A DNA stretch of 64,000 nt, from assembly GCA_949152475.1 (NCBI GenBank), contig OX424568.1, positions 11,383,667 through 11,447,666 on the forward strand. The letters are read 5' to 3'. A program made the position numbers and the translations under genes. Numbering within the stretch: the first letter of the stretch is position 1; every line of letters starts with the position of its first letter. The notes beneath the pieces were generated by a model. It was not told the DNA's origin. It made no database searches and saw only the letters and a list, made by a program, of their open reading frames with translations. Shown piece by piece: positions 6,456 to 57,930 of the stretch. This DNA comes from Terebella lapidaria (Eukaryota; Annelida; Polychaeta; Terebellida; Terebellidae).

Positions 6456-7184
6456 CTGGCCATGGCGGCCACAAGCTGACAGTTTTGTGATCGATGGCGA
6501 TCGATAAAATGGGCCAATCGTGACCATGTTCTGTTTTAGTATTATGTACTCAATAATGAAACACATGGAAATCGTCTATTGCATTAGTCTATGTTTCAAA
6601 TCGTGATCAGATAATCATTGGATATACATTATATGTATCAACCTATGAATATTTGAACCATAAGATTCGGATGATGACAATAAAAATCTGAAGGAGATAT
6701 CATGTCACCTTGATAAGCATGATCGAGGAGTGTATGACCACATTTTGAAATGAAACCAAATTATACTTTCTACACACACAGTGAGACATACAACTTTTTT
6801 CTAACAGCATCAAATACCGTAGGGTATTTGGTATTGTGCAGATTCCTAATCGTATGAAATCGATAACATCCGTACAGATAATCGATAATATCATGCCAAG
6901 TTGAATGAAGGTGCAAATATCAAGTGTTGTACGCAGCGTGGACACATGGATCAATTAACCAAACAGGAAGAATTTATAGTTCATGGCTAAATATCTTGGT
7001 TCTGTGGATTCGTGATCACTCTTCGAGTACATAAAATGTTTTGTATCAGCCAAATAAATTTTCAAGATAAACTTCGTTATACGAACTAAGTTTGTGCATA
7101 GAAAATGCACTCTAGAATTAGAAATGATTTGATTGTGTCTTGTGGTTGCATAGAAGCCACTCACATTTCAAGAGCCCCACTCCA

Positions 7185-7345
7185 CTCAATTCGAGCGTGG
7201 CCCTGTCACTCCAGGGTTTTATTCGTGAAAGGTGCGGTCATACAATCTTCAGTGGACAGAGTATTATCAATCGTGAAAAGTGTTTGTTGTGCATGATATA
7301 ACAGCAAAAATATCATCAGAACGATGATGTTATACTTTTTGTTTG
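7185..7345 (-). pseudogene. Degenerate exon-1 remnant, unit 2 (B type)
   Basis: Counterpart of the remnant at 2.4-2.6 kb, slightly shorter. It retains the CTTCAGTGGACAGAGTATTATC block (antisense of the STVDC region in other copies) but no open exon. Confidence 0.45.
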
Positions 7346-8394
7346 CAATATGCATTTATTGCTCATCAATCAACATTAGTTGAACGTATTGATTGGTGAG
7401 TTGTATTAGTGAGCATTGAAAAATTGATGTTTGCAGTTCACACAAAAAATAACCTCTGCTGGATTTAAAATGCAAAGCCAGCTGTCTGATGTCGTGCAAT
7501 GAATTGATGTCCGCAGAAACATCTGACAATTTAATTTTCAGACTAACGGTGTCATGAGAACGTCGCCTCCCTATCATCCGTACAAAACATTATCCACTTG
7601 ATCTGCTTGCTGCAGACGAAATTTGATCCGTAAAACAATAATTCCTAACATTTTATCTGGCGGAAAAGTGTCATGATGTCACATAAATAATCTTCCCTTC
7701 TAAGAGGAGTTCGTGTTGAGCGGAACTGTCTTGAGCGAGTGAAACTAACTTTCTGAATGTCACTACTGGAAAGAGCACACCAAAGGCCGGTTGCTTGCAT
7801 GTGTCATGATGACTCGGGGGTGAGTTGGACCAAATACGATTTTGTGAAGCGGATTATTACCTTGAGTAGCCTGGAATGTTGCCAAGAGACCCACTCACCC
7901 TGAGGGACTGCTTCAATCGATATAATCACGTCCCGATTTTTTGCATATTTTTTTGCCTTCATCCTGTCATCAAAAAATTGGAAAGGCATGTCCTTAGGCA
8001 GGATAATTATATGTTTGGATGACCATTGATGGACAATGTCTATTTTAGTTTAGATCCAATACCACTGCACGAATAAACTTGCTCACAATCTTGTTTTGTA
8101 TAAACACATTCTGCGGGATAGTCACACACAGTTTTGAACTGTGATAGGCATCAAAGGGGGTTTTCATTTCCAATCGAATTGAGACTTGGGGAGCCACAAG
8201 CCTTTGCTACCGATTTAACCCTTCCTTTTATCCACGGGAAATCCCCTCTCATCTTTTCTCCTGCCATAATAAAATCAATAATACACTGTATTGTATGACT
8301 ATTCCTGGGCATGAAAATGACTTGCATTTCATATCAAATCTCATACGAGATATTGAATTCCTGCAGTAATGTAAATATTGATGGTCACAGTGAA

Positions 8395-8465
8395 ATTAGT
8401 TCCTACTATTGCATAAGCGCCAGATCTTAATATGGGCTGTGGCCGCTCTGTGACCATTTGAACAC
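8395..8465 (-). pseudogene. Array gene, exon 3 candidate, unit 2
   Basis: Minus-strand acceptor GTCGTCAG before GTGTTCAAA. The best conserved frame reads VTERPQPIL then SGAYAIVGTNF, and extends past the listed end into a hydrophobic run resembling INIYITAG. The same peptide is present at about 3.63-3.71 kb and, more distantly, at 63.9 kb. The frame is offset from the acceptor phase, so exon boundaries are uncertain. Confidence 0.3.
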
Positions 8466-8750
8466 CTGACGACTACAAGCTGATGGTTTTGTGATCGATA
8501 GTCCATAAAATGGAAAAAATCATTACTCATTATTCTGCTGAAGTGATCGAATAAGATATTTATACATGCATTATGGGAATTGAAGGGAAAACACACTGAA
8601 ATGACAGAAAGGATGTCTCCATCAGGACAACTTATGATGTTTTAGTCTATCTCATCAACTCATTGACATAACATGCAACAATCAGACTTCAATTCTCGTC
8701 TACTGTATGAAGTTACCATCCATGAAGAAGGCCCTCTAACTGACGCTCAC

Positions 8751-8938
8751 CTCAGTGGTCCAGATTGGGAGGGAGGGTGTGACACTCAATATGGACATAA
8801 GTGTTCCCAAACAAGCAACACAAAACCAGCAGCAGACATAAATATCAGAAAAATCCCTAGAATTCCCAGCATGTCCGGAAACGTGTGAACATCAGAGCGT
8901 ATGTCTGGCTTTGGGTAAATAAACTGCTCTCGCTTGAC
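8751..8938 (-). pseudogene. Array gene, exon 2, unit 2
   Basis: 188 bp between a good acceptor (CTCTCAGTTAG before GTCAAG) and a good donor (CTGAG then GTGAGC). It begins VKREQFIYPKPDI and continues into the hydrophobic stretch MLGILGIFLIFMSAAGFVLLV. It is one base shorter than the 189-bp paralogue at 63,351, around the GTGTTGCTTGTTTGG segment. After this the phase-0 frame stops within the exon, whereas the +1 frame gives LSVTPSLPIWTTE up to the donor. Probably inactivated by that single-base difference. Confidence 0.5.
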
Positions 8939-9612
8939 CTAACTGAGAGACAAGATCAGCCGAATGTCTTCAAACATCTGTGGGCCGTGGGTGGGATAGC
9001 CCCATGATGTATGATGGATACAAGGCATTCATTGTCAATGTTGATGTTCAACTAGAGAATGGTACTTGATAACAACCGATAATTAGTATTTATCATTTTT
9101 TAATTGGATATAGTTACATCAACCATTCATCATCTGCTATGTGTCAGCCTAATTGGATTGGATATAGGACGCATGGCTATTGATATCATACAAAAATAGC
9201 CTATTTATGTGACTTTTAATCTGGTGGTTTGTTTGAATGAGCCGTCTCCAACATGAACCCAAAAAGCCGACATTCATTAGTCTAAGAACCCCACACAAGT
9301 GACACAGGCAAATAACAAAGGTCAGTATGAGCCGATTGTTTCCAATCACGTGACCACAATACAAACATGCAGAAGTACCAAATATCCTGCGCTTGATGTT
9401 TAAGATTTTGAGACATTTGTTTGGCCCCTCAAAATTAGGAAATTTAATATTTTTGAAATCAGTAGTTTTTCGATCAATATTTTAAATAATTGATACACTT
9501 GCCAATATTCCAATGATACGCTATTTTGTCCCTATTGTGTAGCGTTTTCTGTCTTTTATGAAAGGATAACATATCAATACCCAAATGCATGCACATCACT
9601 AGTATCACTCAC

Positions 9613-9798
9613 GTTTCCGTATCCCCACTCAACGTTGATAGAAGATCCGGTCACGTGACCCTGCCACTCCAGGTATTCACTCGCTAGGGGCGCTGTCATG
9701 CAATCTACCGTGGACGGATTGCTGTCGCTCGGGGAAGGTGTTTGTTGTAATGTGGTGGATGGCAAAAGTAGCAACAAAACAGCGAGAATGTTATCCAT
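9613..9798 (-). CDS. Array gene, exon 1, unit 2
   Basis: Open 186-bp exon on the minus strand encoding the signal peptide MDNILAVLLLLLPSTTLQ and a mature part with STVDCMTAPLASEYLEW and ending VEWGYGN at a GTGAGT donor. Length and reading frame match the 62.4-kb copy with only a few residue changes. Its exon 2 (8,751-8,938) has a one-base loss, so the downstream gene may be dead even though this exon is intact. Confidence 0.6.
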
Positions 9799-11537
9799 TT
9801 TGTGGACACGTTCTTGGATGGTCAGCTAAATTTGGTATGTAAGATTGCGTGAGTTGAATGATGATATTTCATGCAGCTATATCCTAAAGAGTGATGTTAT
9901 TGTGCTAGTATTCCATCAATGATGGATGAATAAATGTTGGATGAATGATTCCCGTTTATTAATTTAACATTGCATGAACTGCCTGAAAACGTGAGAGGAA
10001 TTAATTTTCCCAGAAAACATCTGACGTTTTGATCATCCAACTGACGGTCTTTCTTGGCATAATAAATCGCGATGCCAACAATAATTCTTGCGTGTGTACA
10101 TAATTAAACTCTGTCCATCAAGGAATAATCGGTAATGCTTTTCCTTGCGGGAATACTTCTTTTTATACTTCAGGCTATAAATAGCTCTAAACATCTTATG
10201 TGTGAACCAGCGTTGAATGGAGTCAATCCAGCAAGGAGACACTATTTCAAAATCCGTGGTTACTTGCGGCAAGGCTCATAATGATGTGAAAAACTGAGCA
10301 CAGCGAAGGCCAGTTGCTTGCTGTCAGTGATGTTATCGACTGTGGTGGCTACCGAGCGTGTGACTCGCGGCCTAACGAGACCAAGCGCAGTTTCGTGGAG
10401 CCCGGTTATTTCCCGGACAGAGCGGTCTGAGGTGTTGCCAAGAGACCACTCACGCCAAGGCGCTGTTTTCGTGGCTGTAATCACGCTCAGTTCATGGGAG
10501 TCAGAACCTTTCGCACCCTGTCATCATGAAGACATTCACTTCGACTTTGAAGCAATGCTCTTTGTGATCATTTTTTAATGGGAGCGAAATACAAGTAGTT
10601 TTGACTGGGATTATCCTAGGTATTGACTACCACGGCGCCTATCCATCATCAAGATTTCAAGTTAGCCAGTGAAATAATCACGAGTTGTTGCGAACTGCAC
10701 TAGAAGAAGTTCTCGTTTTCAATTGAATCCAGACTCACACGCCAGCATTCAATTGTTCACTCCGTTCCCAATTCAATCCCTGCATTTATCCGTTGAAAAA
10801 TTCATCTCATCTTTACATGTGTTCCTCGAGCTACACTTCAATATTGTGTTCTGATAATGCTATTACTGGGTGGGGTGTCTGCCTTTTACAGCTCGAAATG
10901 TTTGTTAAACTCCCTTCACCAAGGCAAATACTTGTCCTCCCACTACTTGTGTGTGGTATATGTCCAGTTTCGCATGTGATTTGACAGCACTGGAATATGC
11001 TTCCCTCCTGCGGCCGCTTTCTCGAATGTGGGAATTAATTCCCTCCGCTGCGATGGATGAGTCAAATGTCATAGACTGTGGCTGCTCAGTTGACAATGTG
11101 AACACCTGGCGACCACAAGCTGACAGTTTTGTGATCGATGGCGATCGATAAAATGAGCAAATCGTGACCGTGTTCTGTTTTAGTATTATATACTTAATAA
11201 TGGACAAAAGACATCGTCCATTGCATTAGTATATGTTTCAAATCGTGAATTTGTATCAACCTGTGAATATCAATACCACAAGATTCAGATGACAATACAA
11301 ATCTGAAGGAGATATATCATGTCACCTTGATAAGCATGAACGAGGAGTGTATTGGCACAATTTGACGTGAAAACAAATAATACTTTTTACACCCACAGTA
11401 AAACAAACAGCTTTTTCTCTGACATCAACAATTGATGACATAAGTGTTCCTAAAGGAATTGGTGACATATTTTCCCTATTGATTTTATCTTCAGACGTAC
11501 TCAGACACTGATAGGAAACCGTTTTTGGTGTTCACAA

Positions 11538-40165: not shown

Positions 40166-41660
40166 AAATGTAATAGACGTGGAATCAATACCCAGTATTA
40201 GGTATTCCGAGCAAACAAAACAGGGTCCGTTATCCAATCTCATAGTCCGGGGACAGAAAGTCATATCAGGCATACGAAGTGAGAGAAAACAAAAATGACA
40301 GGGAAACTCATGAACCCCCCAAAATGGCCATTAGGAGATGAAATCAGGTGTTCCGGAAAGAGTGAGCATTTCCTGCCCCACTAGTGGCACCCGTCATGAA
40401 TTCCCCAAAATTAACATGAAAATAGATCTAGTTGCATGGCAGACATGGATTTGCTGTATTTATCAACCAGATCATGATGACGTCCATAGAATTTCTTAAA
40501 CGCAGCTATAAGTCTTGGTAAAACATATCCTTGTCGTAGCAGTTTAGTACGGAAGCGTATTGCTATCAAGTGTGTAAAAATTTGTATCTCGTATGTACGA
40601 CTTACTAACTCGTATGTACGACTTATTAAGTCATACGTACGACTTATTAAATCGTATATACGACTTATTGAGTGATACGTACGACTTATTAAGTCGTATG
40701 TACGACTTATTAGGTCATAGGTACGACTTATTAAGTCATACATACGACTTATTAAGTCATATGTACGACTTATTAACTCATACGCACGACTTACTAACTC
40801 GTACGTACGACTTATTAACTCGTATGTACGACTTATTAACTCGTACATGCGACTTATTAACTCGTACGTACGAGTTAATAAGTCGTACGTACGAGATATA
40901 AGTCACACGTACGAGATACATTTTTTTACACACTTGATAACAATACGTCTCACTACGGAAGCGTATTGTTATCAAGTGCGTAAAATTCCTTATCTCGTAC
41001 ATATGAGTTATATCTCATACATACGACTTATTAAGTCGTTATGTACGACTTATTAACTCGTATGAACGACTTAATAACTCATACGTATGACTTAGTATCT
41101 CATAAGTATGACTTACTAACTCGTACATACGGGTTAATAAGTCATACGTAGGAGTTAATAAGTCGTATGTACGAGTTACTAAGTCATACGTACGAGATAC
41201 TAAGTCGTACGTACGGGTTAACAAGTCGTACGTGCGAGTTATTAAGTCGTACGTACGAGTTATTAAGTCGTAGGTACGGGTTATTAAGTCGTACGTACGA
41301 GATATAAGTCGTATGTACGAGATAATATTTTTTACACGCTTCATAGCAATACGCTTCCGTAGTTTAGAGACTAGCTGGGCACTTCGATAGACAAAGTCCT
41401 CATATTTGCAACTAGCTCTGGAATAGCGTATAAGTTGAGAAACGAACACATCATATGCCGGTGACATAGGAATGTTGCTGCTTAGAAAAGGGCCTTTGAC
41501 AGATAAATTCATACTACTCAATAATCGGTTTTGTAAACTTATCACATTTGATTGACCGTAATCAGTTGTACCTCCCTGTGTGGTGTGGTGGATAGGATCA
41601 AATCCCTCGACCATGTAAGTGTGGATGTCGTTTTTGTCCAGTGATTCACTGTTCTGCACG
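40165..41660 (-). pseudogene. Fragment of a retroelement RT carboxyl end (copy 3, split)
   Basis: The best-preserved copy: SNIPMSPAYDVFVSQLIRY, CKYEDFVYRSAQLVSKL, and on the other side of the satellite insertion FYGRHHDLVDKYSKSMSAMQ. It is split by the 40,549-41,360 element. Broken fossil. Confidence 0.55.
40549..41360. mobile_element. Head-to-tail pair of 406-bp palindromic satellite elements
   Basis: Two 406-bp units (40,549-40,954 and 40,955-41,360), each starting ACGGAAGCGTATTG. The last ends CAATACGCTTCCGT. Their insides are arrays of a 21-bp palindromic unit (CGTACGACTTATTAAGTCGTA type). Flanks AGTTTAGT and AGTTTAGA look like a 7-8-bp target duplication in the RT fragment; the empty site is at about 27,960. 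Frames such as MYDLISRTYDLISR repeats come from the 21-bp period and are not genes. Confidence 0.75.
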
Positions 41661-42290: not shown

Positions 42291-44530
42291 GGTTACCGGA
42301 CCTATGGTCCGATAACCTATTGGCATGGCGTTGCGTCCGTCGTCCGTCGTCCGTCGTCGTCCACATTTTTATCTTTTTTGTTTACGAGCGAATTCTTCTG
42401 AAATTTTGCACAAAAATACTTAAAAATAATTCAAGAAGGAGGTATTTTTTAGTTTTTTGATTTTCGCTTTTTTTTTCAAAATGGCGGCCGTTTTCGACGA
42501 AAAATGCCTGATTTTGGAAATCTGTTCAGTAACTTTTTTTCTTTTTGATACATAACACTCCTGATTTGTACTCCTATGATGTCTATAAATTTCGTTGCGC
42601 TTGAATCGCTCGAAGTGGACCATTTTGGCCCAAACTCGGCCCAAATGGGACTTTCCCATGTTAAATTCTCCTGTGCTTTATAATGGGACACATTATGCCT
42701 AATATCTCACTTAATATTGAGATTAGAGACTAGGAATCAATTGTGGACATATAGGAAATGATATACGCTGAATATTCTTGTGACCTTGAATTTGACCTCT
42801 GACCTCAATTTCAAGGTCAGAGCACAAAATGGCTGATATCTCGCTTATTATCGACTCTACAGCTTAGGAATCAATTGTGGACATATAGGAAATGATATAT
42901 GCTGAATATTCTGATGACCTTGAATTTGACCTTTGACCCCATTTTCAAGGTCATAGGACAAAATGGCTAATATCTCGCTTGTTATCGACTTTACAGCTTA
43001 GGAATCAGTTATGAGCATATAGGAAATGATATATGCTGAATATTCTCGTGACCTTGAATTTGACCTTTGACCTCATTTTCAAGGTCACATAACAAAATGG
43101 CTAATATCTCGCTTATTATCGACTTTACAGTTTAGGAATCAATTGTGAACATATAGGAAAGGATATATGCTGAATATTTTCGTGACCTTGAATTTGACCT
43201 TTGACCTCATTTTCAAGGTCACAGGACAAAATGGCCAATATCTTGCTTATTAGCGACTTTACAGCTTAGGAATCAATTGTGAACATATAGGAAATGATAT
43301 ATGCTGAAAATTCTCATGACCTTGAATTTGACTTTTGACCTCATTTTCAAGGTCACATGACAAATTGGCTAATATCTCGCTTATTATCGACTTTACAGCT
43401 TAGGAATCAATTGTGAACATATAGGAAATGATATATGCTGAATATTCTCGTGACCTTGAATTTGACCTTTGACCTCATTTTCAAGGTCACAGGACAAAAT
43501 GGCCAATATCTTGCCTATTAGCGACTTTACAGCTTAGGAATCAATTGTGAACATATAGGAAATGATATATGCTGAATATTCTAGTGACCTTGAATTTGAC
43601 TTTTGACCTCATTGTCAAGGTCAACAGGACAAAATGGCCGATATCTTGCTTATTAGCGACTTTACAGCTTAGGAATCAATTGTGAACATATAGGAAATGA
43701 TATATGCTGAATATTCTCATGACCTTGAATTTGACCTTTGACCTCATTTCCAAGGTCACAGGACAAAATTGCTAATATCTCGCTTATTATCGACTTTACA
43801 GCTTAGGAATCAATTGTGAACATATAGGAAATGATATATGCTGAATATTCTCGTGACCTTGCATTTGACCTTTGACCTCATTTCCAAGATCACAGGACAA
43901 AATTGCTAATATCTCGCTTATTATCAACTTTACAGCTTAGGAATCAATTGTGAACATATAGGAAATGATATATGCTGAATATTCTCGTGACCTTGAATTT
44001 GACCTTTGACCTCATTTTCAAGGTCACAGGACAAAATGGCCAATATCTTGCTTCTTAGCGACTTTACAGCTTAGGGATCAATTGTGAACATATAGGAAAT
44101 GATATATGCTGAATATTCTAGTGACCTTGAATTTGACTTTTGACCTCATTTTCAAGCTCCACAGGACAAAATGGCTAATATCTTGCTTATTATCGACTTT
44201 GCAGCTTAGGAATCAATTGTGAACAAATAGGAAATGAGATATTCTGAATATTTTAATGATATTGCGTTTGACCTTTCACCTAAATTTCAAGGTCAGTCAT
44301 TTTATTTTCAAAGTCAGATTACAAAATGGCTTATATCTCGCTTATTATCAAATTTACAGCTTAGGGGTCCATAGTGAACATATAGGAAATGATGTATGCT
44401 GAATAGTTTGGTGATCTAGAATTTAACCTTTGATCCCATTTTCAAGGTTAGAGATATGGCGATTTCAGTGGTCACCTTGAATTTGACCTTCAACTTTCTC
44501 GGCTTAACTCTGTATATTTCTCCGGTAACC
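42291..44530. mobile_element. 2.24-kb satellite-bearing element with GGTTACCGGA ends
   Basis: GGTTACCGGA at 42,291-42,300 and its inverse TCCGGTAACC at 44,521-44,530 bound the element. After the left end come CCGTCGTCCGTC repeats and a unique 300 bp. The rest is a satellite of about 134-bp period. No open frame of interest. Such GTCCGTCGTCC-containing elements are familiar in marine invertebrate genomes. Confidence 0.6.
42640..44460. repeat. ~134-bp tandem satellite rich in nuclear-receptor half-sites
   Basis: About 12-13 units; phase marks at roughly 42,781, 42,915, 43,049, 43,182 and onward. Each unit reads TGACCTTGAATTTGACC then TTTGACCTC, a TCAAGGTCA block, AATATCTCGCTTATTATCG and CATATAGGAAATGATATATG. 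The reverse strand therefore has GAGGTCAAAGGTCA, a DR1 arrangement, plus TCAAGGTCA extended half-sites on both strands. Later units are more degenerate. Confidence 0.85.
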
Positions 44531-44767
44531 TTTCTAGCCTATTGGGCTAATTTTTTACACAAATGTACTTGTAAATTGCGAGGCTTGGAGTAATACATGC
44601 ATTTAAATGTCATGTAATGCAATATGAATGAATACTCCTGCGTTATATAATAATTTTTATAATTATTTACTGATACCAAAGGAATGCAATGTCAATATAT
44701 GAATACATTTGTGAATGCAAACAATGAGCTGTTCTTTAGGTTTTTCTCCTTTCCAATATAAGAAATT

Positions 44768-45172
44768 TTGTGTCGTTCTTGGTTCACAAAGAAACTCACC
44801 ATGTTGATGTATGTATTCGTCTCTATCGACCAGCAGTCACTTTGCACCGTATTAAACTTCCCTACGAAATTCATTAACAAATATTCAGAGAATGTGATAC
44901 CATATAATATATCGACTGTCTCGAAACTCAATGTTTTATTGTGTTTCGATCGCAATGATTGTATTAAAATTGATCATCCTAGCAAAGCTCATTCGACCGA
45001 AAGTAGATCGATTCCAAAAATGAGCCCGTCATGTCCAGGTGTTGCTGAGTGGGAGGCAGAAGTTCCCCTTGCGTCCACGAACACAACACTTGAGTTGGTA
45101 TGGGAGGGATCAAGTGAGAGAATAATGTTATACGTACCAGTACTCACACACGTTTATGTGTTTGATTGTTAA
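44768..45172 (+). CDS. Unassigned frame, possible distant exon-1 relative
   Basis: A 134-residue plus-strand frame in an otherwise non-coding stretch. Its last part reads MSPSCPGVAEWEAEVPLAS and TTLELVWEGS, and a GTGAGA donor follows at 45,111. The arrangement (Cys, EW, hydrophobic strand, VWEG, donor) loosely recalls DCMTAPLASEYLEW and VEWGYGN-GTGAGT of the array exon. There is no clear signal peptide. I give it low weight. Confidence 0.2.
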   Translation: MCRSWFTKKLTMLMYVFVSIDQQSLCTVLNFPTKFINKYSENVIPYNISTVSKLNVLLCFDRNDCIKIDHPSKAHSTESRSIPKMSPSCPGVAEWEAEVPLASTNTTLELVWEGSSERIMLYVPVLTHVYVFDC

Positions 45173-46560
45173 GTTACTTGTAATACTGTGCAATGTAAAT
45201 ATTTCAATGATTCTGAGAGTTTGCAGAGCCACAAAGCAGTATAAAGGTCATCTTATTTAACCGTACGTAAAAGCAAGTGGACAAAATCATTTGCTGTTGG
45301 GAACCATTAATGAATAGTACGTTATTTTTTTAAGAATCCAAATATAGGATGCGTTTATGACAACATAAACTCGCCTTTTGGTGTTTGATTGGGTTAGTTA
45401 GTTGTCATATACCTATTGCATGGAGTTTATTGTAGAATTCTAAATTGTTTCTGTGGGTTGTTGGGCAGTTGTTTACTAGTTCTATCAAATGTACAGTAAA
45501 AACGTTCCATACAATGTCTGCCGGTGATGACGACAATGTGGCTGTGGTTAATGGGGTGTCGTTTATATTCCAAAGAATGTTGAACTTTGGGATTGTTATT
45601 GGCACCATCACAACGTGGTTCTATTGGTGTCAATATGTTGATCTTACATTTCTTCATATGCATCAATAACTATGAATCACTTGTGATAATGATGTACCCA
45701 CTATTGATATACAAAAATGATAATGCGATATTTTTTTTTTATTCATTTCATGTTTCTGGTAGGGACTTCAGTTTTTATTGTCACTGTCATAATAAATAAT
45801 TGCCGCTGTTGTTAGAAAACAATAAATTCTGGCCATCTTTCTCGTTTTTTGATGGGTAATCACTCGTCAGTGGAACATGTGCGATAAAGGCTTGCGTATT
45901 TGATAATTTGATTGCAGCTCTGTTTCACACGTTACGGTTCTCGAACATCGCTTGACATCGTTAATAAAACCTTATCAGTTCCAGCTCAGACTCATCCATT
46001 TTAGGACAAGCTGATTTTCCTATACCGACATGGCAATTTTGTGTAGTGACACTTCGTACTGACCAATGGAAAACGATGACTAAAAATATAGAAATAATTT
46101 CATACTTTCTACGAGTAAATACCCGTTATATTTATCTCATATGAAAATCTAGCAGTGTGATATAAAGCGAAAAACATCCTCAATAAGCATTTATAATTGT
46201 TTCTGGATGGCGTTGAACAATGTGGAGCCAAGGCTACCCTGAATGTGCTTTGCCATCCTTGAATATGTGTGGTATTGCCCCCACATGCCTGGGAATTGGT
46301 GCCAGGTAACTAATCAATATAAGATGAGATACTAGCCTACTCAGTCACAACTATCAGAAAACAATCGATACCCCCATTTCATGTCAATTTGGTGATTTCC
46401 ACTCTCGTGATATGAATAATTGTTGTGTTGTACAGATAACTACCCTCTGTCTTTTATACCATAATAGTTGATATGCACCATAGCCGTGAGTTCAGCGACA
46501 CGAGTAATCACAACGTGACTCACCAAACACATTCAAGTGAAAACTGTGATGACCATGTTC

Positions 46561-46890
46561 TCAAAACATTCTCAATTCGACCAGACACTTTATTGGTTGA
46601 GATTTTGAGTGACTTTTTTTCCATTTCGAGAGGCAATACCGGTGGACAGTCTGGTGAAAGAGATGATTTGCTGTCGTTGTTGACGCATCAACGTTATCCG
46701 TGAATCTTTTCCCAGACACATTGTAGATGTCTAGACGAGATGAACTTGGAGTCAATGGGAGACTTGTCGTTCTAAAGATGGCGTCAATAACGGAATATGT
46801 CGTACGTCCATTAACAGCACTTAAATAATCAATTAGTGGTGTTATGAGTAAGATGTTTGGATCGAAATATGGAAGTTCTGTGTATGGCAT
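46561..46890 (-). CDS. Uncertain 109-residue frame inside the PLE repeat
   Basis: A minus-strand frame beginning MPYTELPYFDPNILLITPL and ending in a basic, His/Ser-rich tail. The first ~55 residues are also open in the right repeat (54,057-54,221). I recognise no domain. The opposite strand is also partly open and has a GTAAGT-like donor at 46,889. Because the two copies are essentially identical here they give no evidence of selection. It may be a chance frame or a host exon caught in the repeat. Confidence 0.2.
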   Translation of the reverse strand: MPYTELPYFDPNILLITPLIDYLSAVNGRTTYSVIDAIFRTTSLPLTPSSSRLDIYNVSGKRFTDNVDASTTTANHLFHQTVHRYCLSKWKKSHSKSQPIKCLVELRMF

Positions 46891-47190
46891 GTAAGTATCA
46901 ATCTATTGCTACCAATAGATTTTGATGATGCCAATAGCAAACGTAAAATACAACATTTTGCGATAGAATCAAAGCCCGGCCAGTTAGTTTATTCAGAGAC
47001 ACGTTGGTGTCACCAGGAGCAAACAGTGTGTAAAGTGTAGTTGTTTATACTGTACACCTGATGGAATTAGAATACAACTGCCCAACAACCTATACAATTA
47101 ATTTAGAAATCCGAAACAAACTCCATGCAATAAATGTATGACAAGTACCTATTCACAAGCCGAAAGGCTACTGAGTTTATGGTATACTTA
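46890..47190 (-). repeat. Inverted PLE 3'-tail copy (left repeat)
   Basis: The reverse complement reads as the same ~300-bp tail family found on the plus strand at 35,103-35,400, including the blocks CTCAGTAG, GGTTGTTGGGCAGTTGTAT, CATCAGGTGTACAGTA and the end GATTGATACTTACAT. It lies inside the left direct repeat, so each flanking repeat contains two tails in opposite orientation. Confidence 0.75.
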
Positions 47191-48153
47191 CAAGGAACCT
47201 TTCAGCAATACGTCATCTCAATCTTTCTCAATATCTGTAACCAATTCACATTCATTAAATACGTATCATTTTCAAATGTTTTCTCGGTTCAATGGATTGA
47301 TTTGAGGTTGAATCTAGGTTAAATGAAACTGATAGTTGCGAATGAAATGATAATTACTTCTGTTGCAGTGAATACGTGGACAGTTATCATGGTTATGGTT
47401 TGAGGTTGGGACACAGGTATATGTCGCATGATTTATCTCCCATGGAAATCACCACATCGACATGAAAGCGATGATGTATTCAGTATCGATTTGTTTCCTG
47501 ATAGGTGTGATCGAGCGAACTGGTGTCTCATCACATATTCATTGGGTATCCGGCAACAATTCCCGCGGGGATAGGGCAGCAACGCCACAATAGCTAAGGA
47601 TACCAAGGCACACCAAGGACACTGTGAATGTTCCTCAACTCACAACATATTAATATGGCGTCGTGCATGATACATTCTTGCTCAGAACCACCTGGAAACT
47701 ATTACAAGTGGTGACGCTTTTTATGTGCAACTGCATTTTGATATTTTGCATTCATTACCATACAAAACGTTCTGTGTTTATTTTGTTTTGTTGAAATTTC
47801 CAATAGAATAAGTTATTTGATTATGGAAAGTTCTTCCTCGTTTAAAGTCAACACTTCTATATAATCACTACACACGAAATATTGCATTTTCATAGTGTCC
47901 ACAAAATGAATGGTTCTGCGCTGGAAATGATGAGATTTTATTGACTCTATCAAACACTACTTGAGAATCCTAATGTGTATAACAAAGCCGCTTTCAAATG
48001 AGCAAGACTTTGTCTCCCAAATAGGTATCGAAAATACTAAGAGGTTAGGAATTTATTGTTTTGAAACAAAATCGGCAAATATTATCATGACCTTCACAAT
48101 GAACCATTATCAGAAATTATTATCAGAAATTATTGCATTTCCTGAAACGTATC

Positions 48154-49872
48154 ATGGCTCTTTCTAAACCTCCTCACTTCCGTTCTTTTTACACTCTTCT
48201 TCAATGCTTTCACCATCTTTCACTAATGCTCCAGCAGTCTCAAGGCCAAGTCACCAGGGCTTTCAGTAAAAAACAACAACACCTGGATGACTTCATCAAA
48301 CCTGCTTGTTCTGGTCCTCTGATCAAACAAAAAATCTCCAAAATTAATCAAAATTGGGTACAAAACGTGACCGAACAATTGGTGGAACACTACGAGAGCT
48401 CAATTCAAAACCTTTTGGCCCACATTTCCTCTTTAGGTTTATCTGATTCGGACATTGCAAATTCGGTAGCTCTCGTCATTCAGCAGGCTAAATCTCATTT
48501 CGGCAAAAAACTTCAGGCTTCCACCATCCAGAAATTCAAAAGCTCCACTCTTCCAAATTCCCCTATTCCAAATTCTACCTCTCAATCAAAACCTCAGACT
48601 TGTGAGGTTAAAGGTCACAAACACCCACTTAGTAATTTCTTCCCATGTAATATATCCTATCGTGGTATGAGATTCCCTAGCCTTGAGCACATCTATCAGT
48701 ATCACAAAGCCCGGTACCATGACTGTCAACACCTAGCCAATCGGATCCTTAGGGCTCCCCATGCAGGAGTGGCTAAACGTTTGGCTAGTGAAATTCCTAG
48801 CCTGTCCCCATTCTGGCATAAAAGTAAAAATGGAATTATGCGTCAACTTCTTCAAGTTAAGTTTAATTCTTGCAAATTGTTCCGTGACACTCTGATGGGT
48901 CTACCGGAAGGGTGTCACATTGTCCATCCAGTTCCTGACAGCCACTGGGGTGTTAATCATCATGGTCAAGGCTCTAACTTCTTTGGCCGCCTCCTAATGG
49001 ACCTAAAACGTGCCAACTCTCCTACTAACAATCCTAAACCCTCTCGCTCTTCACCTCCATCTTCAAATAACACCCTCCCTGAAACCCTTCCCTCTTTGTC
49101 CACTTCTAACCGCTTCCAACTCCTTGACACCCTCTCTAATCCTCCTTGCCTCTCATCATCTGATGATTGGCCACCTCTCTCTCGTTCTTCTCCTGATAAC
49201 CACCTTAGTGCCACGCCCAGACGGCGTCCGCGCTCTCCTTCTCCTGAACTCTCACCCTCCTCTCTACCTAAAGGCAAACGCTCTCGCTTTGCCTCTCCTA
49301 AAAACTCTCCTAACACCACTTTCCATGTCTCCCCTTCCACTATCAGAGGGCCCAAAACTCTTTGGACCCTTCCTAGACTAACCTCCTCCACTGTCGTCCT
49401 CGGCTCTCCTAACCTCTCTCGCATCACCAAATCCCCCGTTAGTGATATCCAAGTTGTGTCTTATCCTGGAGCTTTGTTCAACCATCTGAGAATGATGTTC
49501 ACGGCCTGTAAAAAAACATTTGATGCCCCCAAAAACTTAATCTTAAGTGTTGGCCTGAACAATCGAAGCTCCAAACCAAGTGTTACTTCAATTCCAGAGC
49601 TGAGGAATATGCTCAGCAGTGCTTTCCGAATCTTCCCCCACTCCAAAATTCTTATTCCAAAAATTAACTACTCAGACAATCTTCCGTCTGTAGAGAAACG
49701 CAACTTGGATATGATTAACAGGGCTTTAGATGACATGAGTTCACGTTTCAGCAATCTCACAGTTGTTAAACAATTGGATCCAATCAGGTTCTCTACACAG
49801 CCAGATAACATTCATTGGACTGAACAAACGGCCAATGAAATGTTGAAATGCTGGCTCAGTCATTTAAACTAA
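48154..49872 (+). CDS. PLE ORF1: NADAR domain plus SGNH-like domain protein
   Basis: A 572-residue protein, first ORF of the Penelope-like element. The open frame begins at a TTG at 48133; I chose the first ATG. Residues 1-130 are helix-rich and unrecognised. Residues about 156-286 match the NADAR (DUF1768/YbiA-like) fold: LSNFFP at 159-164, SLEHIYQYHKA at 176-186, AK at 207-208, W221, IMRQLLQVKF at 228-237, WG at 265-266 and a GSNFFGRLLM block at 273-282. Known NADAR enzymes act on ADP-ribose-linked substrates, including ADP-ribosylated guanine in nucleic acid. Residues 290-405 are a Ser/Pro-rich basic linker. Residues about 411-570 resemble an SGNH/GDSL domain: GSPNLSRI at 417-424, LSVGLNNR at 464-471, DNIHWTEQTA at 551-560. 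The end of the frame overlaps the next PLE segment by 25 bases. NADAR assignment is strong; SGNH is likely; biochemical activity is inferred. Confidence 0.88.
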   Translation: MALSKPPHFRSFYTLLQCFHHLSLMLQQSQGQVTRAFSKKQQHLDDFIKPACSGPLIKQKISKINQNWVQNVTEQLVEHYESSIQNLLAHISSLGLSDSDIANSVALVIQQAKSHFGKKLQASTIQKFKSSTLPNSPIPNSTSQSKPQTCEVKGHKHPLSNFFPCNISYRGMRFPSLEHIYQYHKARYHDCQHLANRILRAPHAGVAKRLASEIPSLSPFWHKSKNGIMRQLLQVKFNSCKLFRDTLMGLPEGCHIVHPVPDSHWGVNHHGQGSNFFGRLLMDLKRANSPTNNPKPSRSSPPSSNNTLPETLPSLSTSNRFQLLDTLSNPPCLSSSDDWPPLSRSSPDNHLSATPRRRPRSPSPELSPSSLPKGKRSRFASPKNSPNTTFHVSPSTIRGPKTLWTLPRLTSSTVVLGSPNLSRITKSPVSDIQVVSYPGALFNHLRMMFTACKKTFDAPKNLILSVGLNNRSSKPSVTSIPELRNMLSSAFRIFPHSKILIPKINYSDNLPSVEKRNLDMINRALDDMSSRFSNLTVVKQLDPIRFSTQPDNIHWTEQTANEMLKCWLSHLN

Positions 49873-50063
49873 ATCATTCTGAGAGTCCACCGAACTCCAG
49901 TACGACTAATAATGTTGTAAACCTTTCCAAATTTACACTTTCGGACACACAAATCGCTCTTCTAAATCGTGGTTTGACTTTTGTTCCCACACCCAAAATA
50001 ACATTGGATCCAATTGAACAGGCTGTGCAAGATTTTGGTAGAAAACTCAAACTTAAAAATTAA
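49848..50063 (+). CDS. PLE ORF2 amino-terminal segment (separate frame)
   Basis: A 71-residue frame overlapping the end of ORF1. It carries the sequence NLSKFTLSDTQIALLNRGLT followed by FVPTP and a DFGRKLKL tail. A block of this type (NLS, LL.RGL.F.PTP, F.RKL.L) stands at the amino terminus of PLE polyproteins, before the RT fingers. It is therefore probably the real start of the RT protein rather than a separate gene. It lies in a different frame from the RT ORF. Coding similarity continues downstream of its stop to about 50,200, so roughly two breaks separate it from the main ORF. Either the copy is slightly decayed or recoding is used; the sequence alone does not decide. Confidence 0.65.
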   Translation: MLAQSFKLNHSESPPNSSTTNNVVNLSKFTLSDTQIALLNRGLTFVPTPKITLDPIEQAVQDFGRKLKLKN

Positions 50064-50224
50064 TTTTCTCACCGTCCAAATTCATTTACAAATAGATCCA
50101 AATTCACTCCAAAATCTACTTGGACTCCACCCAGTTCCATGATTGACAAGCCTGTTTTAGATTGCATTTCGGCAATATCTAAAGAAATTGAAAATTTGAA
50201 AATTCAACCAGAAATCTAACGAAA

Positions 50225-52144
50225 ATGGAATATAAAACTATAAAGGATTTACAAAATAACGTAGACTTGGTAATCAAAAAAGCAGATAAAGGTAGTGCAG
50301 TCGTAATTATGGCTAGGCAAAATTATATTAATGAAGGCTTTCGTCAATTATACAATCCAGCTCATTACAGAGAAATTGACACTCCTCTTTACCCAGAAAA
50401 TTCAGAAAAAATAACAAAAATTTTAAAAGGATTACGCAGTTCTGGATGCCTTTCTGAAAAAGTATTCCAATTTCTTTTACCACCAGAACGCCCTCGTCAA
50501 AGAAGATTTTATATGCTACCTAAAATTCATAAACCCAAAGACTCCTGGCCAATTCCAAATGTAATGCCTCCAGGGCGCCCAATTGTATCTGACTGCAGCA
50601 GTGAATCTGAAAAAGTAGCTATGTATATTGATTCATATATAAAGGATCAAGCAAATAAACATCCGTCATATATAAAAAACACGTATGACTTTTTAGATAA
50701 AGTTAGAGGGCTTGAACTAGATCCAAATTCGTTACTAATCACTTTAGATGTTGAAAGTATGTATACTAATATAAATCATGAAGAAGGTATCCAAGCAATT
50801 AAAAATGCATTCCCGACTCTGAAAAACAATGAACTATTCAAAGGTATAATAGAATTATTGGAAATTTCACTTAAATGTAATGACTTTGAATTTGACGGTA
50901 AGACATTCCTACAAGTTTCAGGTACAGCCATGGGTCAGAAATATGCACCTCATTATGCAGATATTTATATGGCTGAATTTGAAAAGCAAGCATTACAAAA
51001 GTGTCCATTCCAACCAGATTGCTATTATAGGTATTTAGATGACATTTTCCTCATTTGGCCACACGGCATTTCCAAATTTAATCAGTTTCTCGAAATATTC
51101 AATTCTCATAGGGCATCAATCAAGTTCAAAGCTGAAATTAGTACTGATTCAGTTAATTTTTTGGATACTACTTTGTTCAGGAGCAAAGAAAACACATTAG
51201 AAGCAAAAGTTTTCTTCAAGCCAACGGATACTCATCTGTTGTTGCATAAGCTCTCTTTTCATCCAAAACACACTTATAAAGGACTAATCAAGTCCCAAGT
51301 TTTTCGATTTTTCCAAATTTGCTCATATCCAGATGATGTTGAATCAGCTTGTCAAATATTATTCAAGGCACTTTCGAAACGTAACTATTCAAAACGTTGG
51401 CTTCGCAAAATCAAGAATGAAACATTGAGAATTTTGAACAGTGAGGAAAGATTAGGTTCTGATTTTCAATTGCCCACTTCCAGCTCGTCTGGCTCAAAAC
51501 CTTGTAATTCTAGACAATGTCAGACATGTCATTTAGTTCCAAATTGTCAAAATTTCTCGGGATCAGTTTTGGAACAAACCTACTCAATCAACTCAGCTTT
51601 GGATTGCAACTCAGAAAATATAATTTATCTATACACTTGTAAGCTTTGCGAAAAACAATATGTAGGTGAAACCGGTAAATCACTCAAATTCAGAAACAAT
51701 CGTCACCGTGCTGCAATAACTAGCTGCAATGAGGAAAATGCATTATACAGTCATCTATCTAAATTTCACAGCAAAACTGAATTTTCCATCGAATGTTTTT
51801 CTCTTTTACCAATTGAACAGGTTTCCGATCTTGGTGATGAACTTTTAAACAAACAATGGCGACTTGAAAGGGAATATTGTTGGATTGATACTCTAGGCAC
51901 TTTCGAACCTCATGGCCTCAACGTTCAAAAATTTACAAAGTATGACCCTTTGAACAAAAGTAAAAATAAATTCGACCTGGTGTATATAGTACCCTTCTCA
52001 AAAACAGGTGCTCTTTCGGCCCAAATTGTTAAAAAGCATATGAAACAACTCAACAAAAATACTGATGGTGATATTAAAATAGCAACAGCTTACAAGAAGC
52101 ATCAAAACCTTAAAGAACTTTTAGTCAGAAGCAGACTTAAATAA
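50225..52144 (+). CDS. Penelope-like reverse transcriptase with C-terminal GIY-YIG endonuclease
   Basis: A 639-residue protein that copies element RNA into DNA and nicks the target. PLE signatures in order are: IKKADKGSAVVIM at 17-29; LPKIHKP at 98-104; PGRPIVSDCSSES at 116-128; motif A LDVESMYTNI at 174-183 with Asp175; motif B GTAMGQKYAPHYADIYM at 233-249; motif C YRYLDDIFLIW at 268-278 with Asp272/273; NFLDTTL at 311-317. A Cys-rich linker (PCNSRQCQTC, 426-435) precedes a GIY-YIG nuclease: IIYLYTCKLC at 466-475, YVGET at 479-483, Arg490, and LEREYCWIDTL at 547-557 with candidate catalytic Glu550, then HGLN. The zinc-finger-linked nuclease is as in animal GIY-YIG PLEs (Neptune/Penelope side). 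The ATG at 50225 is simply the first in the open frame; the true N terminus is probably upstream at 49,848. Confidence 0.95.
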   Translation: MEYKTIKDLQNNVDLVIKKADKGSAVVIMARQNYINEGFRQLYNPAHYREIDTPLYPENSEKITKILKGLRSSGCLSEKVFQFLLPPERPRQRRFYMLPKIHKPKDSWPIPNVMPPGRPIVSDCSSESEKVAMYIDSYIKDQANKHPSYIKNTYDFLDKVRGLELDPNSLLITLDVESMYTNINHEEGIQAIKNAFPTLKNNELFKGIIELLEISLKCNDFEFDGKTFLQVSGTAMGQKYAPHYADIYMAEFEKQALQKCPFQPDCYYRYLDDIFLIWPHGISKFNQFLEIFNSHRASIKFKAEISTDSVNFLDTTLFRSKENTLEAKVFFKPTDTHLLLHKLSFHPKHTYKGLIKSQVFRFFQICSYPDDVESACQILFKALSKRNYSKRWLRKIKNETLRILNSEERLGSDFQLPTSSSSGSKPCNSRQCQTCHLVPNCQNFSGSVLEQTYSINSALDCNSENIIYLYTCKLCEKQYVGETGKSLKFRNNRHRAAITSCNEENALYSHLSKFHSKTEFSIECFSLLPIEQVSDLGDELLNKQWRLEREYCWIDTLGTFEPHGLNVQKFTKYDPLNKSKNKFDLVYIVPFSKTGALSAQIVKKHMKQLNKNTDGDIKIATAYKKHQNLKELLVRSRLK

Positions 52145-52753
52145 TCCAACAAAATTTGTTCAATGTCGCTCATTGAATTTTTATTGCTGTTTTATGTTAT
52201 GTGTTACTCTTACAATTATCTTGTGCCAGTGCATTTTTTATTCTCTCCAAACCATACCACTGAGCCTTTGCCTCTGCTGGTGGGCGGTAATTTTTTCTCT
52301 GATAATACCCTAAAATACCCTAAAATCTGTTTCCACTTTCTTCTTCTGGTCGGAACACTCTTGACCACCCTGCTCAATCATGACGCATCCAAACATGATT
52401 TACTACATGTGTATTCATATGACTGGAGATTTCCACCTTATTTTTTAAAACTACTCGTGTTGGCTTTTGATAGGGTAGCTATGCACTTGTCACACAACTA
52501 TTGACTGGGGTGTGTTCTGACATTCTAAATTGTTTTGTGTTGTTTGGCAGTTGTATGCTGGTTCCGTCAAGTAAACAGTAGGAAAACCTGTATTTCTCAC
52601 ACTGTCCGCCCCTGATGACGCCAGTGTGGCTTTGGCTTCAATACTTAATAAAATTTAGTTCATATTCCAAAAATGTTGAACATTACATTTGTTATTTGCA
52701 CCATCACAATCTGGTTCCAATGGCGGTAATATGTTGGTAATTACATTTCTTCA
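52145..52753 (+). other. PLE 3' untranslated tail
   Basis: About 610 bp from the RT stop to a conserved TTACAT end. The last ~300 bp (from about 52,456) belong to a family also seen at about 45,373-45,655 and 35,103-35,400 on the plus strand, and inverted at 46,890-47,190 and 54,221-54,521. All contain a GGCAGTTGTAT-like block, a TGATGACGCCAG-like block and a common 3' end resembling GATTGATACTTACAT. An AATAAA-like signal is present near 52,658. A 113-residue hydrophobic frame (52,163-52,504) falls in this tail; I do not consider it a gene. Confidence 0.6.
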
Positions 52754-53716
52754 GATGCATCAATAACCATGAATGAGCAATTCCAGTGGACGTCAGACAA
52801 GGCTTGATGTTGATGGTTTTGAAGTCATGAAAATATAATGAGATTCATGCTCAAGTCACTTCTGTCTCTGACACCAATCACTATAGAAAGTGGAGTTTTG
52901 ATAGCATACATTTGTGATATACTCACTGTTGATATAAAAAAGATAATGCAATAATTTATCATTTATTTCATGTTTCTGATAGGGACTTCAGTTTTTATTG
53001 TCACTGTCTTAATAAATATTTGCCGCTGTCGTTAGAAAACAATAAATTCTGGCCATCTTTCTCGTTTTGTGATGGGTAATCACTTGTCAGTGGAACATGT
53101 GCGATAAAGGCTTGCGTATTTGATAATTTGATTGCAGCTCTGTTTCACACGTTGCGGTTCTCGAACATCGCTTGACATCGTTAATAAAACCTTATCAGTT
53201 CCAGCTCAGACTCATCCATTATTTGGACAAGCTGATTTTCTTATGCCGACAGTGCAATTTCGTGTAGTGACCCTTCGTACTGACCGATGGAAAACGATGA
53301 CTAAAAGTATAGAAATAATTTCATACTTTCTCCGAGTCAATACCCAGTATATTTATCTCATATGAGAATCTAGCCGTGGGATATAAAGCGAATAACATCC
53401 TCAATAAGCATTTATAATTGTTTCTGGATGGCGTTGAACAATGTGGAGCCAAGGCCTTCCTGTGTGTGCTATGGTATCCTTGAATATTGGTGGTATTGCC
53501 CCAACATGCCTGGGAATTGGTGCCAGGTACCTAATAAATATAACATGAGATACTAGCCTATTCAATCACATCTATCAGAAAACAATCGATACCCCATTTC
53601 AGGTCAGTTTGGTGATTTCCACTCTCGTGATATGAATAATTGTTGTGTTGTACTTTTAACAGACAACTACCCTCTGTATATTTACAGCATATAGTCGATT
53701 TCAGCGACACGAATAA

Positions 53717-53839
53717 TTGACCTTACGATTGTCATGATTGAACACCTTTTTTGTGAAGCGTACATATCGGACAAATATTGCCGAACAATAGTAATCCCCT
53801 CGGACAAACAACTCAAAGCATACATCGTCGTAAGGGCAA
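53717..53839. mobile_element. Short TIR insertion in right PLE repeat
   Basis: About 123 bp with ends TTGACCTTACGA and TCGTAAGGGCAA, imperfectly inverted. It is absent from the left repeat, where the sequence around 46,500 runs straight through. A small MITE-like insertion is the simplest reading. Confidence 0.5.
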
Positions 53840-54220
53840 TTACAATGTGACTCACCAAGCACATTCAAATGGAAATTGTGATGACCGTGTTCTCAAAGCA
53901 TTCTCAACGCGACCAGACACTTTATGGGTTGAGATTTTGAGTGACTTTTTTCATTTCGAGAGAGAATATCGGTGGACCGTCTGGTGAAAGAGATGATTTG
54001 CTGTCGTTGTTGACGCATCAACGTTATCTGTGAATCGTTTCCCAGACATATTTGTAGATGTCTAGACGAGATGAACTTGGAGTCAATGGGAGACTTGTCG
54101 TTCTAAAGATGGCGTCAATAACGGAATATGTCGTACGTCCATTAACAGCACTTAAATAATCAATTAGTGGTGTTATGAGTAAGATGTTTGGATCGAAATA
54201 TGGAAGTTCTGTGTATGGCA

Positions 54221-54521
54221 TGTAAGTATCAATCTATTGCTACCAATAGATTTTGATGATGCCAATAGCAAACGTAAAATACAACATTTTGCGATAGAAT
54301 CAAAGCCCGGCCAGTTAGTTTATTCAGAGACACGTTGGTGTCACCAGGAGCAAACAGTGTGTAAAGTGTAGTTGTTTATACTGTACACCTGATGGAATTA
54401 GAATACAACTGCCCAACAACCTATACAATTAATTTAGAAATCCGAAACAAACTCCATGCAATAAATGTATGACAAGTACCTATTCACAAGCCGAAAGGCT
54501 ACTGAGTTTATGGTATACTTA
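54221..54521 (-). repeat. Inverted PLE 3'-tail copy (right repeat)
   Basis: Counterpart of the inverted tail in the left repeat, lying exactly 7,331 bp downstream and apparently identical to it. Confidence 0.75.
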
Positions 54522-55457
54522 CAAGGAACCTTTCAGCAATACGTCATCTCAATCTTTCTCAATATCTGTAACCAATTCACATTCATTAAATACGTATCAT
54601 TTTCAAATGTTTTCTCGGTTCAATGGATTGATTTGAGGTTGAATCTAGGTTAAATGAAACTGATAGTTGCGAATGAAATGATAATTACTTCTGTTGCAGT
54701 GAATACGTGGACAGTTATCATGGTTATGGTTTGAGGTTGGGACACAGGTATATGTCGCATGATTTATCTCCCATGGAAATCACCACATCGACATGAAAGC
54801 GATGATGTATTCAGTATCGATTTGTTTCCTGATAGGTGTGATCGAGCGAACTGGTGTCTCATCACATATTCATTGGGTATCCGGCAACAATTCCCGCGGG
54901 GATAGGGCAGCAACGCCACAATAGCTAAGGATACCAAGGCACACCAAGGACACTGTGAATGTTCCTCAACTCACAACATATTAATATGGCGTGGTGCATG
55001 ATACATTCTTGCTCAGAACCACCTGGAAACTATTACAAGTGGTGACGCTTTTTATGTGCAACTGCATTTTGATATTTTGCATTCATTACCATACAAAACG
55101 TTCTGTGTTTATTTTGTTTTGTTGAAATTTCCAATAGAATAAGTTATTTGATTATGGAAAGTTCTTCCTCGTTTAAAGTCAACACTTCTATATAATCACT
55201 ACACACGAAATATTGCATTTTCATAGTGTCCACAAAATGAATGGTTCTGCGCTGGAAATGATGAGATTTTATTGACTCTATCAAACACTACTTGAGAATC
55301 CTAATGTGTATAACAAAGCCGCTTTCAAATGAGCAAGACTTTGTCTCCCAAATAGGTATCGAAAATACTAAGAGGTTAGGAATTTATTGTTTTGAAACAA
55401 AATCGGCAAATATTATCATGACCTTCACAATGAACCATTATCAGAAATTATTGCATT

Positions 55458-56048
55458 CGGATTATTTGTATAACAATCCCAATATTGCGAGTGTATGTTA
55501 TAAAAGCTATCCTTTTTATATCGATCCTTCTCAAAATAGAAATGATTTAAATAGGGGACATTTATGCTTGTATAACATCATATATTCATGACTTTCAATA
55601 AAAGTCTAGCCTTCTCTCAAGTTTACTGTAAATGGTTTATGACAAAGTAGGTATATATTTGGAAATCTGACAAATACTGATAGATCAGCCAACAACAATC
55701 TACTCACTGATCTCAGCAATATGGTTTAAAATATCACCACAAACCATTTATTGCTGATCAGTCATTAAATTCGTGCCAATATCATTTTGCATTATACTAT
55801 GCACTGAATTGTTCCACAATTGATTTAAAATCAATGCATAGTATTTGTGTGATTAGCTTTATATGACGGTATTATCAGTTCCCTCTCTCATATACATGTC
55901 CGGTTCGTGGGCGCTTGAGGAACAAGCGAATATTCGATCTGATATCGAAAGGCATGAGCTCTCTCAAGGTGAATGTCTGAAATTTATTCTATTATAAATG
56001 TGTATTCTATTATAAATGTGCATCAATAATTGCGACCAATGTATGAAC
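55458..56048. other. Unique flank right of the PLE
   Basis: AT-rich, no homology to other parts of the window noticed, with an AATAAA at 55,597. No coding exon supported. Confidence 0.3.
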
Positions 56049-57930
56049 TCAAATGTAAATTAAGAATTCAACTGGTTTATTTATTTTTATATTAAGGTTA
56101 TATCTTATGTTTGGAAACGTAGATAACAGAAACGGAATTGAGATATTTGTTGCCACAATGACACCACATGGCCCCCCCCACACACACACACACACATTTG
56201 TAATACACATACAAGGCACATCTCTCTGTATTTGTGTTATGCTGAGTTCTGTTTTGACTGGAGTGCTATACAATTCTTGATTTGATGTTTGTCGTTGCAT
56301 GAGTTGATATACATCGCAATTGTTTATTGTAAAACATAAATAAGCACAACAGGAGAAAGCACAACAATAAGCACAACAGGAGAAAGGAATAAATAACTAA
56401 AGAAACGTTCATTGCTGACGTTCCTAATTATATGTATATCTGGCCATCACGCTTAGTTGGTATCAGTAAATAATTCATGTTTTGGGAATATACACATGTA
56501 ACAGTACTGAAAAAACGCATGTGTGTCTCTGGTGTTTTTATTCAGGTAATATTACATGATATCAAATTATACGCCTAGCATTAATTACAATACATGTACG
56601 TGAACGCAAGGTTATGATCCGGTGCACGTGTAAATTCATGATTCCCCCTCCAAAGTTATCTTCGTGTGACATTTTTCTTACTTGGAAGAGCAGGCCAAAT
56701 GTTGAAGCGTTTGTAAACGCCCGCTGTCATATCCTGACCGAAACCAGGTTTGGCCTCTGGTATCGCCTAGAAAGTGATAAATCGAATTACTGTGCCCCTG
56801 ACTAAGCGGTGACATGTGACATCAGTTCGCGTTGTATAAATGTCACGGGCAATATCTGTAAATTAGCTAATGCCTCGCCAAATGTCAGTAGCCTAATGTA
56901 CACATCTGCAAGGCTTTAAATTTGTACTTTAAATTGACTACTCTCTAACATTTATTAGCTTTTCCATTTGGAACACCATGTTCCTTGTCTGCAGACTTAT
57001 TTGAACATTAACTTGAGGCCAGGAATAGGAAATATTTCTCATCAAAACTAGAAATTCAACTGGTTTATTTATTTCTATATTAAAATTATTAATTTATATG
57101 TTATGTTTGGAAACGTAGATAACAGAAACGGAATCGAGGTATTTGTTGCCACAAGGACTCCACATGTTTGCCTCCGCCCCCCCCCCCCCCACACACACAT
57201 AAATTTGTAATACACATACAAGGCACATCTCTCTGTATTTGTGTTATGCTGAGTTCCATGATGTCAGTTTTGACATACAATTCTTGATTTGATGTGTGTT
57301 GTTTCATGATGTTGATATACATCGCAATTGTTTACTGTAAAACATATATGAATAAGCACAAAAGGAGAAAGGAATGAATACCTAAAGAAACGTTCATTGC
57401 TGGCGTTCCTAATTATATGTATATCTGGCCATCACGTATTGGTATCAGTAAATAATTCATGTTTTGGGAATATACACATGTAACAGTACTGAAAAAACGC
57501 ATGTTATTCATATATATTACATGATATAAAATTATACGCAGAGCATAGGAAATTACGAGTACATGTACGTGAACGCAAGGTTATGATCAGGTGCACGTGT
57601 AAATTCACGATTTCCCCTCCAAAGTTATCTTCGTTTGAAATTTTTCTTCCTTGGAAGAGCAGAGCGTTTGTAAACGTCCGCTGTCATGTCCTGTCCGGAA
57701 CCAGGATTGGCTTCTGGTATTGCCTGGGAAGTGATAAAACGAATTATCAGTTCGCGTTGTATAAATGTCACGGGCAATATCTGTAAATTAGCTAATGCAT
57801 CGCCAAATGTCAGTAGCCTAATGTACACATCTGCAAGGCTTTAAATTTGTACTTTAAATTGACGACTCTCTAACATTTATTAGCTTTTCCATTTGGAACA
57901 CCATGTTCCTTGTCCGCAGGATTATTTGAA
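56049..57930 (+). repeat. ~1-kb tandem duplication
   Basis: 56,049-56,940 and 57,055-57,930 match at an offset of about 970-1,000 bp. Shared blocks are GTTTGGAAACGTAGATAAC, an (AC)n tract, CATCACG-TTGGTATCAGTAAA and GGTTATGATC. Part (about 56,780-56,900) also occurs inverted at 42,005-42,150. Small frames (56,614-56,805; 57,583-57,786) share MIRCTCKF but diverge by indels; not supported as genes. Confidence 0.75.

Follow-up and report, generated by a model that had tools for sequence, protein, structure and literature searches.

Penelope-like elements are best known as retroelements with a single ORF. The Penelope/Poseidon type (e.g. PAc) has been described with an ORF that joins a reverse transcriptase (RT) to a C-terminal GIY-YIG endonuclease, with head-to-tail tandem units separated by UTR (the pLTR arrangement) and with a hammerhead ribozyme, a motif that is present in many of these elements (PMC11167929). 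Penelope elements have also been described from rotifers (PMC3846280). SGNH esterases occur in ORF1 of CR1, RTEX and Penelope-like elements (PMC3905857), and GDSL esterases are found among the accessory genes of Terminons (PMC6431247). NADAR domains were reported in 2025 from the Pol of a Gypsy element of the brown alga Ectocarpus and, based on Repbase, from ORF1 of a Tx1 LINE of the Pacific oyster, with processing of the RNA intermediate as the proposed role of the retrotransposon NADAR (PMC12477816). NADARs are found in many animals, and the residue on their last strand is Glu, Asp or His depending on the subfamily (PMC11125620). Hydrolysis of guanine-ADPr was demonstrated for several NADARs, one of them from an oomycete. 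PnNADAR holds ADP-ribose via E43, K50, R79, W89, R93, W133 and other residues, with R79 contacting the pyrophosphate. Its catalytic acid E125 corresponds to D171 of the E. coli C7 NADAR, in which the exchanges D171A or D171N led to loss of efficient guanine de-ADP-ribosylation (PMC11543638).

The window, i.e. the entire 64,000-nucleotide stretch of contig OX424568.1 of Terebella lapidaria that was analysed, harbours an element which resembles the Penelope/Poseidon type in its RT and endonuclease ORF (ORF2) and in its tandem units. Unlike that type, it has an upstream ORF1 with NADAR and esterase domains, and its two frames meet at a − 1 frameshift heptamer (Table 1). An SGNH domain in ORF1 is shared with the CR1/RTEX LINEs and Penelope-like elements described in PMC3905857, but in contrast to the ORF1s described there, the N-terminal helices are followed by a NADAR domain before the esterase is reached. 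As in the Ectocarpus Gypsy and oyster Tx1 elements, a YbiA-type NADAR is carried by a retrotransposon, although the element classes differ. The initial annotation, which was made from the sequence alone, knew of no characterised case of such a domain in a retroelement; PMC12477816 had already described NADAR retrotransposons, while those reported there are not Penelope-like. Among the papers listed by searches of largely open-access full text, none showed a NADAR domain or a frameshift site for a Penelope-like element.

Table 1 Features of the element within the window of contig OX424568.1
Feature	Coordinates	Strand	Support
5′ UTR remnant, 12 bases	48142..48153	+	Comparison of junctions at 30 loci
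ORF1 (572 aa) with a helical bundle, a NADAR domain, a disordered linker and an SGNH esterase	48154..49872	+	76 scored genomic matches
N-terminal five-helix bundle, residues 1–134	48154..48555	+	
NADAR domain, residues 148–290	48595..49023	+	Pfam, PDB sequence and fold; pN/pS 0.09
E178 and K185	48685..48708	+	Equivalents of PnNADAR E43, K50
V257, aligned with the third catalytic acid (PnNADAR E125, YbiA Glu, C7 D171)	48922..48924	+	
Disordered Pro/Ser-rich linker, residues 291–388	49024..49317	+	pLDDT mostly < 40; pN/pS 0.69
SGNH esterase domain, residues 390–572	49321..49869	+	
ORF2 5′ part, − 1 frame, ATG at 49848, closed by an in-frame stop	49839..50063	+	
TTTAAAC − 1 frameshift heptamer, in phase with ORF1 and immediately 5′ of its stop	49863..49869	+	30/30 loci
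Main ORF2: reverse transcriptase and GIY-YIG endonuclease	50225..52144	+	Pfam; 1600 homologues
3′ UTR start	52145..52257	+	Match in 18/29 other loci: 17 at 98–99%, L025 at 91.6%

For the N-terminal bundle, comparison with PDB folds gave no convincing match. The top PDB profile match of the esterase domain is the LINE esterase 4c1b. The Ser, Gly, Asn and Asp-x-x-His blocks of SGNH enzymes are present, with Gly, Asn, Asp and His found in all 30 genomic copies compared, whereas the nucleophile Ser is replaced by Pro in the window copy (49408–49410) and retained in the other 29. Matches to the Pfam GDSL models were obtained for five of the related proteins P0001–P0008, every one under the cut-off. 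In ORF2 of the window, RVT_1 was found above the Pfam cut-off, while GIY-YIG scored 21.8 bits, slightly below its cut-off of 22.6. Together with its interrupted ORF2, the exchange in the esterase indicates that the window copy is damaged in both proteins. A precomputed GIY-YIG domain is listed for some of the best 120 of the 1600 ORF2 homologues, the set of relatives analysed here; for one of these (P0019), no GIY-YIG was detected at E 0.01. The RTs of the window ORF2 and its relatives are presumably Penelope-like.

A protein search of the genome with ORF1 revealed at least 76 copies, a lower bound since only 76 of 1144 first-look candidates were scored. All 76 matches are 96–100% identical and span residues 1–572 or 3–572, and ORF1 is free of stops in 73 of them. 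A Penelope ORF2 marker was found downstream of ORF1 in each of 30 loci fetched for comparison, which include the window's own copy (L001). In 22 of these loci, the ORF2 frame has no stop along the roughly 500 codons that were sampled. The full ORF2 of 770 codons was read once (L031), in the same unit as the ORF1 of L023, which has one stop. In 18 of the 29 other loci, another unit has its 3′ end at most 1.5 kb upstream, hence the units are arranged head-to-tail in tandem. These observations confirm the initial assignment of ORF1 to a Penelope-like element. The distance from the ORF2 stop to the next ORF1 start is about 918–929 nt in eight of the 11 loci examined for spacing (in L022 counted to residue 3) and 215 nt in L021; the end of ORF2 was not found in L009 and L012. 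Match coordinates of one tandem array give a spacing of 4907 bases three times. The window copy is truncated at its 5′ end near 48142, based on the junction comparison of the 30 loci, and its 3′ similarity to other units stops at 52257. Comparison with Rfam showed no hammerhead match at E ≤ 1 in 44500–56500 or in 12 of the 30 loci, nor at gathering thresholds in the whole window. In L009, L012 and L021, a TA/CA-rich simple repeat replaces the usual 5′ UTR in the last 70 bases before ORF1, just upstream of position 1501, and the ORF1 match begins at residue 3; in L012, this stretch gives low-grade matches to microRNA families.

The 3′ end of ORF1 reads CAT TTA AAC TAA. Its TTTAAAC fits the pattern X XXY YYZ in zero-frame phase inside the ORF1/ORF2 overlap and is the sole in-phase slippery heptamer within ORF1 of the window. 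The ORF2 ATG is missing from 13 of the 30 loci, 11 of which keep ORF2 open over the sampled part. When protein ends HLN or YLN and FKL overlap in this way, they force TTTAAAY. FKL occurs inside the first 14 residues in 14 of the best 120 ORF2 matches, compared to six of 120 at residues 15–54. A predicted hairpin begins 8 nt past the heptamer, but no unusual structure was found downstream (z − 1.72), with 77 of the 209 windows used for comparison folding equally well. We infer that a − 1 ribosomal frameshift at UUUAAAC may produce a fusion of ORF1 with the RT and endonuclease.

The first search yielded nine ORF1 relatives (P0001–P0009), seven of which have a NADAR above the Pfam cut-off. P0007 has a homologous ORF1 without a Pfam NADAR match, thus the domain is dispensable for some relatives. 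P0009, a protein of 413 aa on a contig of 1405 bases, likewise has no Pfam NADAR match; it features a similar N-terminal domain, a long Ser/Thr/Asn/Pro-rich linker and then, by eye, a NADAR-like start, which would be a second domain spacing. In other families, four of eight ORF1 homologues match an ORF2 homologue in source and exact contig size (5762, 4805, 5375 and 14721), compared to a mean of 0.23 and a maximum of three matches in a size-only control with 400 shifted sets. No contig-matched partner was found for P0001, P0004, P0007 and P0008 among the best 120 of the 1600 ORF2 homologues. We also analysed whether one DNA sequence can encode both an ORF1 end and an ORF2 start, using 111 ORF2 N-termini. 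P0005 is compatible with P0019 alone, which is its contig partner. P0006 fits four of the 111, its contig partner P0032 included, and these four also suit the window, P0001 and P0008. P0002, P0003, P0004 and P0007 fit none of the 111; for the partners P0016 and P0015, the protein entries start downstream of the overlap. Matching contig sizes and protein ends thus suggest that ORF1 and ORF2 are linked in other families as well. In a FastTree phylogeny with 61 rows (the window ORF2 plus 60 proteins taken from the best 120), the five ORF2 proteins with a NADAR ORF1 share one clade of 13 rows with an SH-like support of 100, the ORF1 of the other eight rows being unseen. The NADAR-partner label requires five changes on this tree, no fewer than shuffled labels do, as one would anticipate if the majority of NADAR partners had escaped notice.

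The NADAR assignment of ORF1, already made in the initial annotation, is supported by a PF08719 score of 59.6 bits (gathering cut-off 35.1) and by agreement of PDB sequence and fold comparisons, the domain having a YbiA-like fold. It shares with NADAR hydrolases (PnNADAR 8bau, YbiA and DarT1-linked NADAR) the fold and the equivalents of E43, K50, W89 and W133. These residues (E178, K185, W221 and W265) are present in all eight element-type proteins (window, P0001–P0006 and P0008) and, together with D262, are unchanged in the 30 genomic copies. The domain differs from these hydrolases where they have the third catalytic acid, a position whose surroundings align with YbiA and 8bau without any gap: V257 is Val in 30/30 copies, and P0001–P0006 and P0008 have V, S, V, S, T, S and L in this order. 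Neither an acid nor a His was found at this place among the eight proteins and the 30 copies, while P0010, a TatD-NADAR protein outside the element-type group, has E. The earlier statement that the key residues look intact therefore holds for E178, K185, W221, D262 and W265 but finds no support at the catalytic acid. The R79 equivalent is likewise changed, to Ser in all 30 copies. The place of K75 is K in 29 of 30 and that of R93 is K in 30 of 30 copies. The D130 position is D in six of the eight proteins, C in P0003 and H in P0006. H258, adjoining V257, is invariant in the 30 copies; since YbiA carries it too, it is no clear substitute for the missing acid. With E178, K185, W221 and W265 kept and the third acid missing, an ADP-ribose pocket is likely and ordinary hydrolysis is uncertain; the domain might take ADP-ribose off nucleic acid.

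Over 435 pairs from the 30 copies, pN/pS values of 0.14, 0.09, 0.69 and 0.21 were obtained for the N-terminal domain, NADAR, linker and esterase, respectively, NADAR being the lowest in ORF1. NADAR variants comprise 13 nonsynonymous and 23 synonymous changes (p = 5e-8 against neutrality). The comparison of NADAR with the linker gave p = 0.047 and that of the linker with neutrality p = 0.31, all of these being rough values given the relatedness of the copies, some of which adjoin each other in tandem. The NADAR domain is under strong purifying selection among copies and was functional recently, as had been proposed from the sequence.

Our preferred reading, tentative and as a whole just short of an even chance, is that this Penelope-like retroelement was active until recently, occurs as tandem repeats and resembles Gag-Pol in its layout. 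ORF1 would be a structural or RNP protein composed of the helical bundle, NADAR, flexible linker and SGNH esterase, and frameshifting at UUUAAAC would yield its fusion with RT and endonuclease. NADAR would be located in the RNP of the element and engage ADP-ribose, or a similar group derived from NAD, carried by element RNA, cDNA or nearby proteins; host ADP-ribosylation would thereby be kept from blocking the copying cycle. Homology and conservation show the fold and most of the putative ADP-ribose pocket, while hydrolysis is uncertain, since none of the examined members has the third catalytic acid. If true, this would represent a Gag-Pol-like expression strategy within the Penelope lineage. 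The lower pN/pS of NADAR compared to the esterase (0.09 vs. 0.21, point estimates) suggests that retrotransposition in this host is restrained by ADP-ribose marks or by signals derived from NAD. As the element is young and has many near-identical copies, the case is open to experiment.

We consider it rather unlikely that NADAR still strips guanine or other bases in the RNA or cDNA of the element of ADP-ribose by hydrolysis and counters host ADP-ribosyltransferases, with another residue replacing the acid. The intact E178 and K185, the lowest pN/pS in ORF1 and the guanine-ADPr hydrolysis known for several NADARs, including the oomycete enzyme (PMC11543638), are in line with such an activity. 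However, V, S, T or L takes the E125/D171 place in 8/8 proteins, the D171A/N exchanges in C7 were detrimental (PMC11543638), and H258 is no clear replacement. The extended version, a retrotransposon-borne eraser with a rebuilt active site acting on nucleic acid or RNP proteins, packaged via the ORF1-RT fusion and escaping PARP-type restriction, is likewise unlikely. It also seems unlikely that NADAR is a pseudoenzyme or structural part, retained as a surface on which the RNP binds protein or RNA and devoid of ADP-ribose chemistry. Absence of the catalytic acid from 8/8 members and the nematode NADAR protein SNA-3, which works with an RNP (PMC9303266), are consistent with this, but fixation of E178, K185, W221 and W265 in the copies and proteins exceeds the needs of a scaffold. 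A host gene or gene of another element beside an RT fragment would be consistent with the window alone and with flanking direct repeats that are not the element's own, but deserves almost no credence; chance adjacency is ruled out by the 30/30 paired loci, overlapping frames and tandem units in 18/29 others.

The long direct repeats that flank the element (45378–48140 and 52460–55461) contain inner inverted repeats; they are 99–100% identical over 46740–48121 and 73–98% identical further left and are not the element's own ends. A large direct repeat (2192–6813 and 6966–11431) shows 84% identity across 4.7 kb. The window also features a minisatellite at 42695–44295 (134-base units, about 12 copies, 91% matches) and a 21-base tandem repeat at 40589–41320 (about 35 copies), part of which is traversed by a 206-aa minus-strand ORF at 41039–41659.
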